From Gymnodinialimonas ceratoperidinii (lineage in GTDB: Bacteria; Pseudomonadota; Alphaproteobacteria; Rhodobacterales; Rhodobacteraceae), in assembly GCF_019297855.1 (NCBI RefSeq), contig NZ_CP079194.1:917501-981500 (forward strand): a DNA stretch of 64,000 nt, given 5' to 3'. The notes beneath the pieces were generated by a model. That model made no database searches and was not told the origin of the DNA. It saw only the letters and a program-made list of their open reading frames with translations. Made by a program: the position numbers and the translations under genes. Positions 56,301 through 59,970 of the stretch are shown here, one piece after another; within the stretch, counting starts at the first letter, position 1; each line of letters begins with the position of its first letter.

Positions 56301-57956
<1,656 letters not shown>

Positions 57957-58055
57957 GGGACCGCGTGACAACCGGGGAAGCGCGTTAGTGCTTTCCCGCC
58001 TATCGGCAGTCTATTGCCGAATATCCGGCGAGAGGTGACGCCCCAACCCTTTCCC

Positions 58056-58084
58056 TTGATTTCCTTGCCGATCCACGCCATATC
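58056..58084 (+). promoter_or_regulatory. candidate promoter of the cold-shock gene
   Basis: TTGATT (58056-58061), 17 bases, CATATC (58079-58084). Transcription from about 58091 would give an mRNA leader of some 120 nt, usual for cspA-type genes with temperature-sensitive structure. The leader contains an imperfect direct repeat, CTCGATCTACTGTC (58107-58120) and CTCGATCTGCTATC (58141-58154). Confidence 0.45.
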
Positions 58085-58212
58085 GAAATTGCGACCGTTA
58101 CCGCACCTCGATCTACTGTCTCCTCTACCAAGGCCTCAGTCTCGATCTGCTATCCAACTGACGCCAAACCGCCGCATGCACGCGGGCGGACTACATACTT
58201 AGGAGACACACG

Positions 58213-58419
58213 ATGGCCAACGGCACCGTGAAATGGTTCAACTCTACTAAAGGCTTCGGCTTCATCGCACCCGAGACGGGCGGCAAGGACGTGTTTGTGC
58301 ACATCTCTGCTGTTGAGCGCTCCGGTCTGACCGGCCTCGCCGACAACCAGAAAGTGACTTACGACCTCGAAGCTGGCCGCGATGGCCGCGAGAGCGCCGT
58401 GAACCTGAAGACGGTCTAA
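58213..58419 (+). CDS. cold-shock domain protein (CspA family)
   Basis: 68-residue single-stranded nucleic-acid-binding protein. RNP1 is KGFGFIAPE and RNP2 is DVFVHISAV, with MANGTVKWFNSTKGFGF at the start. The order of aromatic residues matches RNA-chaperone CSPs. AGGAGA lies eight bases before the ATG. It has its own terminator, so it is probably transcribed alone and not with the microprotein genes downstream. Confidence 0.96.
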   Translation: MANGTVKWFNSTKGFGFIAPETGGKDVFVHISAVERSGLTGLADNQKVTYDLEAGRDGRESAVNLKTV

Positions 58420-58450
58420 GCGACCCTTCAGCACTTGCTGACAAGACGAT

Positions 58451-58480
58451 GGCGCGCCCGGTTTCGGACGCGCCTTTTTT
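58451..58480 (+). terminator. intrinsic terminator after the cold-shock gene
   Basis: The arms GGCGCGcCCG and CGGaCGCGCC enclose GTTT and are followed by six T residues, 31 bases after the cold-shock stop codon. Confidence 0.93.
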
Positions 58481-58773
58481 GTGTCCGGGCTCAGGCGACC
58501 TTCCGGCCTGCGGGGTGCAACAAGCGCGGGCAATCTTGGTCTGCGAATCCGGTGACGGCGATACCGAGAATCCAATAGCATCTTCGTTGTCAGGGTGCGG
58601 CTTCGCGGCTTCCGAGTGCGCGGATTTCCGTCTGCACACCGAAAGAATCGAGCGCTGTGCCAGTTCCCGCTCACGGTAGGAGACCTTCGGCTGCATTCCG
58701 CCAAATGTCTGAATGCACGGCAATTTCCAACTGGAACGTGGCTTGGGATATCGGATATCAGCGCGGCGATTTT
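58481..58773. other. gap without a recognised gene before the microprotein cluster
   Basis: About 290 bases with no frame I can support. One plus-strand open frame (58449-58679) starts inside the terminator hairpin and has no ribosome site. The promoter for the microprotein genes should lie here. I see no convincing -35/-10 pair. Confidence 0.5.
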
Positions 58774-58818
58774 GTGTGACAGCGGGGGTGTTCCGCACCG
58801 TGTTTGCATCCGTCACAC
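58774..58818 (+). other. inverted repeat in the leader of the first microprotein gene
   Basis: GTGTGAC (58774-58780) and GTCACAC (58812-58818) are perfect complements, with a smaller G/C stem possible between them. It ends four bases before the ribosome site AAAGGAAA of the gene at 58836. It could be an RNA hairpin at the 5' end or a protein-binding site. Confidence 0.5.
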
Positions 58819-58835: not shown

Positions 58836-58934
58836 ATGACCCGCCCCGCCCAGACGCCTCGCCATCAGCCGAGCACCCCGCCCGCACAACCCGCTCCTAC
58901 ACCATTTCGCTTTACCGATTGGGCCTCGATCTAG
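58836..58934 (+). CDS. microprotein A of the PFRFTDWA family
   Basis: 32 residues: MTRPAQTPRHQPSTPP, then AQPAPTPFRFTDWASI. It is Pro-rich with Gln, Arg and His, and ends in the motif shared with two downstream genes. AAAGGAAA is seven bases before the ATG. There is no signal peptide or membrane helix. I do not recognise the family. The evidence for coding is the shared C-terminal peptide, a ribosome site at normal spacing, and paralogy with the two following genes. The longer N-terminal half distinguishes it from copies B and C. A CCTGTC-AA-GACAGG stem-loop (58936-58949) follows the stop. Confidence 0.75.
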   Translation: MTRPAQTPRHQPSTPPAQPAPTPFRFTDWASI

Positions 58935-59010
58935 CCCTGTCAAGACAGGAGACCGCCCGCAGATTGTTCTGTCGAAAACGGTTAATCTCGATCGGGAAAG
59001 GAGCAAGACA

Positions 59011-59091
59011 ATGACCCCTCGCCAACCGAAACATCAGCAACGCAAGCCCCGCCCTCAACCCTTCCGCTTTACGGATTGGGCGGCGATCTGA
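59011..59091 (+). CDS. microprotein B of the PFRFTDWA family
   Basis: 26 residues: MTPRQPKHQQRKPRPQ, then PFRFTDWAAI, stop TGA. Very basic, Pro/Gln/Arg/Lys-rich first half, aromatic and acidic end. AAAGGAG lies seven bases before the ATG, one of the best ribosome sites in the window. 21 of 26 residues are identical to copy C, but 12 of those shared codons differ at the third base, so the amino-acid sequence, not the DNA, has been held. Function unknown. Confidence 0.82.
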   Translation: MTPRQPKHQQRKPRPQPFRFTDWAAI

Positions 59092-59163
59092 ACGGCACCC
59101 TTCGGAACTTCCACGGGAGGCAAGTTGTTGTCCTCTTAAGTGAAGTTGAAAAGGAAACCGATC

Positions 59164-59244
59164 ATGAGCCCGCGTCAGCCCAAGCCCCAAGAGCGCAAGC
59201 CCCGCCCGAAGCCGTTTCGCTACACCGATTGGGCCGCCATCTGA
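59164..59244 (+). CDS. microprotein C of the PFRFTDWA family
   Basis: 26 residues: MSPRQPKPQERKPRPK, then PFRYTDWAAI, stop TGA. AAAAGGAAA precedes the ATG at 8 bases. Relative to copy B there are five amino-acid changes (T2S, H8P, Q10E, Q16K, F20Y), all conservative except H8P. The stop is followed by the same AACGG as in copy B. The spacing of the three starts (175 and 153 bases) is close to regular, which fits tandem duplication of a gene with its own translation signal. Function unknown. Confidence 0.82.
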   Translation: MSPRQPKPQERKPRPKPFRYTDWAAI

Positions 59245-59412: not shown

Positions 59413-59970
59413 ATGTGCTCATCCCCCCTACAGTCTACCGCCACCGCGGCCGTTCTGGCCATTGCAATGGCAATCGTTCCCATGTCAGGCGCAAAGGCGC
59501 AAGACGCGGGCGAACTCGCGTTTGTGCAGGGTCTGATGGAATCGATGAACCAACTGTCGGTCCGCTTCAATCGAGAGGTCTGCGGTTTCATCCTGCAGGA
59601 CGCGGAAGGCAATTATTCATCGACGAAAGTGTCCTGGGGCGGCGAAGCGAGTTGCGCGTCGCTCCCGATCGAAGAGGGGCAGAGAGCCGTCTCGTCCTGG
59701 CACACCCATGCGGCCTGGGGATTGGGGTACGATGGGGAAGTGCCATCGATCCAGGATGTAGAAGGCGACATGCGCTATGGGGTGAACGGTTGGGTCGCGA
59801 CGCCGGGCGGCCGGCTGTGGTTCGTCGATGGCACGACAGGCACGATGGTGCAGGCCTGCGGTCGCGATTGCATCCCCGTCGATCCGAATTTCTATCCCGA
59901 GGAACATGGCCCAGTGGCCGAGAGGTACACGCTGGAAGGCCTGTACCAAAGGTTCGGCCGCTCGCGCTGA
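59413..59970 (+). CDS. secreted DUF4329 protein with JAMM-like metal motif
   Basis: 185-residue exported protein. A signal peptide (TAAVLAIAMAIVPMSGAKAQ) is followed by NREVCGFIL (Glu 55), SSWHTHAAWGLGYDGEVPSIQD with His 97, His 99, Ser 112 and Asp 115, and VATPGGRLWFVDGTTG. This matches DUF4329 in character. The spacing H-x-H...S-x2-D resembles a JAB1/MPN zinc peptidase but with four extra residues. Four Cys could form two disulfides. Role unknown. Related domains occur in bacterial toxins and in free-standing forms. Confidence 0.78.
   Translation: MCSSPLQSTATAAVLAIAMAIVPMSGAKAQDAGELAFVQGLMESMNQLSVRFNREVCGFILQDAEGNYSSTKVSWGGEASCASLPIEEGQRAVSSWHTHAAWGLGYDGEVPSIQDVEGDMRYGVNGWVATPGGRLWFVDGTTGTMVQACGRDCIPVDPNFYPEEHGPVAERYTLEGLYQRFGRSR

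Follow-up and report, generated by a model that had tools for sequence, protein, structure and literature searches.

Tandem microproteins with a conserved C-terminal tail beside cspA and ettA, and a predicted family of relatives in Rhodobacterales

Introduction

Do three very short reading frames that lie in tandem downstream of a cold-shock gene encode proteins and, if they do, what could proteins of this size with a common ending be for? The frames are located in the window, a stretch of 64,000 nucleotides (positions 917501-981500 of a single-contig genome of 3.62 Mb). The initial annotation considered them paralogous, selected peptides of no named family, similar in composition to proline-rich peptides that bind the ribosome tunnel, and proposed a ribosome- or RNA-related role as one hypothesis among several.

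Results and discussion

Three tandem genes under purifying selection

Microproteins A, B and C (Table 1) show different front parts and the common ending PFR[FY]TDWA[AS]I, with the stop codon directly after it, and each of them is preceded in the window's genome by an AAGGA-type ribosome site, as had been annotated and as the sequence confirms. Among the 13 genomes of the genus, the A orthologue shows merely a weak GGA at this site in seven, read by eye. Microprotein C is a B-like extra copy, found among these 13 genomes in that of the window only, which by pattern search contains four microORFs: A, B, C and a copy at a second locus (locus II). The tandem paralogy of the three copies is supported, and the codon changes previously counted between B and C are exact: 12 are synonymous and five change an amino acid (T/S, H/P, Q/E, Q/K and F/Y), read by eye. 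By the Nei-Gojobori method, the differences between the two are 16 synonymous, over 17 synonymous sites, and five nonsynonymous, over 61.

Table 1. Position of the microprotein genes, their neighbours and the noncoding elements in the window.
Feature	Position	Strand	Description
ettA (ABC-F translation factor)	56307..57956	+	TIGR03719, 952.7 bits; synteny; neighbour of locus I
cspA (cold-shock domain protein)	58213..58419	+	Pfam PF00313; synteny, upstream of A
Noncoding element ATATCNGCGCGNCGATWTTGTGTGRCA	58755..58781		About 55-80 nt before A; few changes across 13 genus genomes
Microprotein A	58836..58934	+	32 aa, MTRPAQTPRHQPSTPPAQPAPTPFRFTDWASI; tail PFRFTDWASI
Second noncoding block	58938..58963		Between A and B; TGTCAAG...CCCACAGAC in relatives (alignment)
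Microprotein B	59011..59091	+	26 aa, MTPRQPKHQQRKPRPQPFRFTDWAAI; tail PFRFTDWAAI
Microprotein C	59164..59244	+	26 aa, MSPRQPKPQERKPRPKPFRYTDWAAI; tail PFRYTDWAAI
DUF4329 gene	59413..59970	+	PF14220, 144 bits; synteny, downstream of locus I

In 13/13 genomes of the genus, orthologues of A and B are located between cspA and the DUF4329 gene, ettA lies in the same stretch, and cspA, previously suggested as a common neighbour to look for, is constant in all of them; copies of B were found by tblastn in 12/12 other genus genomes searched. Most differences among the orthologues are in third codon positions. Over 13 orthologues, pN/pS of A is 0.30 in the last 24 codons and 0.15 in the last nine, and that of B is 0.29 and 0.09, respectively. 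The same 24 codons read in two shifted frames give values of 1.45-2.18, and a 72-base stretch from about 15 bases past the stop, compared without alignment, gives about 1.0. Because of this third-position excess and of pN/pS values that are low against both the shifted frames and the post-stop stretch, A and B are real genes, and purifying selection acts on their peptides, most strongly on the tail, which agrees with the selected peptide of the initial annotation.

A family of short proteins with a near-fixed tail

A DNA pattern for R[FY]TDWAxI followed by a stop codon is present in 26 of 394 family genomes (0 with the reversed control) and a relaxed pattern in 30 of 296; the set of family genomes is broader than NCBI's Roseobacteraceae (Rhodobacterales). 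A scan of named genomes gave at least 119 stretches and, among the 80 loci listed, 77 have Rhodobacterales titles, which include Jannaschia, Roseovarius, Nioella, Palleronia, Rhodovulum, Gemmobacter, Salipiger, Phaeobacter and others, the eight genera named being presumably all members of Rhodobacterales. A Methylococcaceae MAG (L168) and two Anoxybacillus loci (L199 and L214), where no ribosome site was scored, are probable chance matches and were left out of the ORF counts. The 77 named loci listed contain 84 ORFs, with a median of 33 aa; their start codons were chosen by the script, so that the lengths of long ORFs are unsure, and the motif statistics come from loci picked by the motif itself.

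The commonest tail is R[FY]TDWA[AS]I and the core of the motif is [FIY]-x-D-[WYF]-A-x-[IL]-COOH. The front parts are variable in sequence and contain 23% Pro, 11% Ala, 11% Gln, 10% Arg and 9% Thr (84 ORFs); net charges lie between -4 and +9, and 72 of the 84 have a positive one. As a check free of the strict pattern, the ORFs upstream of tfoX_C were read in 17 family genomes outside the genus; candidates needed either a ribosome site or, close to their end, an aromatic residue, and were then picked by eye. Eleven of these genomes show a similar ORF, in which D and A are constant (11/11) with W, Y or F between them, and the tails include ITDWASI, FRDWASI, FKDWASI, FDDWASI, FRDYASI, IRDFASI and ITDYASL; in the other six of the 17 a microORF adjacent to tfoX_C was not recognised. 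Conservation is therefore found beyond the strain, in the whole genus, in the 26 family genomes and in relatives from other genera, and these sequences point to a predicted family of microproteins, mostly of 25-55 aa, spread across many genera of Rhodobacterales and undescribed in the sources searched.

The cross-genus search and the pN/pS controls contradict the idea that the frames are chance ORFs or parts of a conserved RNA. This idea would suit their very small size and the conserved noncoding blocks that are also present in the genus, but it is highly improbable given the codon-position signal, the frame-shift controls, the ribosome site scored in 70 of the 84 ORFs and a motif that is kept at the protein level across genera despite different codons.

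Comparison with known families and possible role of the tail

Pfam and NCBIfam gave no match at E<=1 for A, B, C and one relative, in agreement with the initial annotation, which knew no named family, and the microproteins appear to be members of no family that could be tested. In PHROGs, one of 32 members matched an unnamed family, weakly (E 0.014). The solved structure 2k5k (E 0.5 over 14 residues) was treated as a chance match. A mobile or viral origin was also rejected, with no convincing match: phages and plasmids show none at E<=10 (one 26-residue query, a weak test), and in viral contigs three stretches matched the peptide pattern, none of them confirmed, and the strict pattern was found in 0. 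Neither the tail motif strings nor a description of the family was found in those parts of the literature that the search covered.

The likeness to proline-rich peptides of the ribosome tunnel is weakly supported. The front is Pro-rich and mostly basic, but the RKPRP motif is present in only 8/84 ORFs and K[PR][RK]P in 14/84, so neither is conserved in the family, and the conserved part is the C-terminal octapeptide. Proline-rich antimicrobial peptides are Pro/Arg-rich, a composition that copies B and C share in a comparison by description only; in contrast to them, the microproteins show a front that is not conserved and, as their conserved part, an aromatic/acidic tail. Small DUF1127 proteins of alphaproteobacteria, for which the title of one paper reports a protein-protein contact with a sensor kinase (PMC12501420), are also very short and conserved; however, the four microproteins scanned have no Pfam match. 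As far as can be inferred, the microproteins resemble other small proteins acting through protein contacts.

Docking peptides commonly consist of a low-complexity spacer and a single conserved free tail. The explanation that we consider somewhat probable is that the microproteins are independently translated and act in trans, with a disordered front and a free C-terminal docking motif for one conserved cellular protein; as an overall mechanism it is held with moderate confidence. The variable Pro/Gln/Arg/Lys-rich front would be a disordered spacer and the conserved free C-terminus the working part, a short linear motif that would bind its partner in trans, and the several paralogues per genome (four here) might tune this partner under different conditions. 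F, W and I are three apart, and on binding the tail may form a short helix with one hydrophobic face, closed by the carboxylate. Both the disorder and the docking are what we infer; an AlphaFold (AF2) model of 32 residues is without secondary structure (pTM 0.15), with a mean pLDDT of 79.3 and 29/32 residues at 70-90, and is not in itself a demonstration of disorder.

A conserved extreme C-terminus behind a variable front is also compatible with nascent-chain arrest peptides, considered below, or with a C-degron. As a C-degron, the tail would be a protease tag and the microproteins, with a short lifetime, would be adaptors or decoys of a protease of the Clp or Prc type, and the conserved part does lie at the free carboxyl end with small or hydrophobic final residues. 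Such a role is very unlikely, since eight conserved positions, D and W included, seem beyond the needs of known C-degrons, and the tail-plus-stop pattern finds in the window's genome the four microORFs only. A larger protein with a mimicked tail was also considered: of the eight occurrences of [FY][TS]DWA in this genome, four belong to the microORFs, two lie within long ORFs and the other two in short, doubtful frames, which was treated as coincidence.

Two recurrent genomic homes

Outside the genus, the strict pattern gives 26 matches, which fall in 25 loci and 24 other genera. With a flank of up to 7 kb, less at contig ends, all 25 loci were assigned to one of two genomic homes (10 to home I, 15 to home II), though the evidence for a few is thin. 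Home I shows ettA, cspA, DUF4329 or gcvP nearby; the thin assignments here are L066, where cspA and ettA are as far off as 5.6-6.5 kb and on the other strand, and L063, which shows cspA only. Home II shows the order microORF, tfoX_C (PF04994), ndk on the other strand and a gene encoding a YheS-type ABC-F protein. Of its 15 loci, 13 have tfoX_C at a distance of 38-144 bp, one has it 1.1 kb away and in the last it was not found; the assignments of L072, L076 and L086, by tfoX_C only, are likewise thin. All 13 genus genomes also contain a home II copy, with the tail R[FY]SDWASI. The subfamilies of the two homes differ in the residue that precedes R/K: near cspA/ettA it is aromatic in 31 of 39 ORFs, next to tfoX_C it is V, T, P or A in 24 of 27. 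Extra copies are present in home I: three in L070, and two, around cspA, in L075.

Among the 77 named loci listed, 12 lack all of the usual neighbours over the stretch examined; two of these 12, L196 and L235, belong to home II when read further (L064 and L080). Eight proteins encoded beside seven of the 12 loci were compared with Pfam, giving an amine oxidase, a histidine kinase, a HupE-type protein and an AcrB-type transporter; the other four had no match. The EttA label requires 60% identity in the analysis of the 25 loci and has no identity filter in the neighbour counts of the 77, where some may be other ABC ATPases.

Locus II in genomes that have lost tfoX_C

The second home bears on whether the microproteins are leader peptides, whose tail would stall the ribosome at the stop codon and regulate neighbouring downstream genes in cis (in locus II tfoX_C; in locus I DUF4329, cspA or the following microORF). 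The conserved extreme C-terminus, the variable front and the median of 33 aa suit such peptides, and tfoX_C is located within 200 bp downstream in 27 of the 77 named loci listed. A tfoX_C relative is present in 11 of the 13 genus genomes, the exceptions being G000, which is the window's genome, and G003. G000 shows no PF04994 match genome-wide, tfoX_C is absent at locus II by tblastn, and the microORF is followed, in place of tfoX_C, by genes encoding a Pmp3-type proteolipid and a DUF4112 protein (L100:5176-5760); in G003, the locus has no tfoX_C and its microORF lies in inverted orientation. Both genomes retain an intact locus II microORF with its tail. Synonymous and nonsynonymous changes of the G000 copy are 12.8:3.2 against G002, 11.5:4.5 against G004, 13:3 against G006, 15:5 against G008 and 17:1 against G012. 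The changes private to G000, common to none of these five genomes, are seven synonymous and 0 nonsynonymous; those of G003 are eight and five, a weaker signal, with no nonsynonymous change in the last eight residues. Since the tfoX_C losses are undated, part of these private changes may predate them.

A leader for tfoX_C would be expected to decay once tfoX_C is lost, and the intact copy therefore argues against a leader peptide: at locus II, the peptide is kept also where the downstream gene that it would regulate is gone. The same reading is at odds with downstream genes that vary among loci, a microORF located before or after cspA depending on the locus, copies in tandem, the use of all three stop codons (67 TGA, 11 TAA and 6 TAG among the 84 ORFs) and four intergenic stretches of the window whose folds are hardly more stable than those of shuffled sequences (z -0.1 to -1.4). 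The RAPP-type arrest peptides ApcA, ApdA and ApdP (PMC12992588) are likewise small ORFs with the functional part near the C-terminus; unlike them, the microproteins show no RAPP/RGPP motif (0/84) and no constant downstream gene, and they persist in genomes that lack this gene. Control in cis by the tail is thus rather unlikely, less clearly so at locus I than at locus II, and the locus II peptide is taken to be selected for its own sake. Because the window's genome has no tfoX_C, this gene is not an obligatory partner.

At another locus (L102), a short tandem repeat with units of approximately TTGGCCAGCCCCTAAA lies just past the stop of the locus II microORF and seems to have grown from its end.

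ABC-F genes near the microproteins

Docking in trans raises the matter of the partner, and the neighbours ettA, yheS and cspA alone suggest a role in translation or stress. The window's genome contains three ABC-F genes, encoding EttA, a YheS-type protein and a Uup-like protein (best model Uup, 589.7 bits, under the cut-off of 900), and both of its microprotein loci lie within about 2 kb of one of them, EttA and the YheS type, respectively. Since about 0.6% of the genome is 3 kb or less from an ABC-F gene, two such placements would arise by chance with a probability of roughly 4e-5, an estimate made post hoc on two placements only. Among the 25 non-genus loci, the distance to an ABC-F gene is at most 7 kb in 18 and at most 3 kb in 15, and four of the seven without one (L063, L072, L073 and L077) are short-flanked on one side. 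The ribosome- or RNA-related role first proposed gains some weight because both homes are near an ABC-F gene, by guilt by association, and this proximity is a lead, not a result.

As a special case of the trans-acting docking microproteins, the peptides may act on ribosomes or on ABC-F factors such as EttA and YheS, for instance as Pro-rich test substrates or cofactors. In spite of the proximity of both homes, we regard this as unlikely: the placements in the window's genome are just two independent ones, 12 of the 77 named loci are without the usual neighbours, no ABC-F match to Pfam is found among the eight proteins beside seven of them, cspA and tfoX_C are mostly nearer than the ABC-F gene, and PPP is present in 4/84 ORFs and PP in 34/84. 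A more specific and speculative version, to which we give still less credence, is that the free tail [FIY]xD[WYF]AxI-COOH would be a dedicated ligand of an ABC-F factor or other ribosome-associated protein, and that several such peptides would be cofactors or inhibitors that throttle translation under cold or other stress. No description of a peptide-controlled ABC-F system was found in those publications, or parts of them, that the search covered.

If the partner of the docking tail were a translation factor, these microproteins would bring to light a control of ABC-F proteins by peptides; whatever the partner, a family with members mostly of 25-55 residues and a near-fixed tail, found in many genera of a major bacterial family and missing from the profile libraries searched, means that conserved functional genes this small are being missed. 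Their small size makes them cheap to test, and one synthetic eight-residue peptide could recover the partner.

Noncoding elements and folds around locus I

The element at 58755-58781 is a possible promoter or operator, judging by its conservation, and in part of the genus it is near-palindromic. A regulon for it was rejected, as it is present in a single copy in the window's genome even at three mismatches, and upstream of the microORFs of other genera its score is about equal to that of shuffles. A scan for consensus promoters and terminators gave none, and it also leaves unreported a terminator-like hairpin after cspA (approximately 58449-58482), where the fold of 58440-58490 has -21.5 kcal/mol (z -1.8). 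Rfam shows no RNA family for the microORF region; its cspA thermoregulator alone is matched, at 58031-58479, spanning cspA, with 41.8 of 78 bits, well below the gathering score. The second noncoding block, at 58938-58963, is better preserved in relatives than in the window itself.
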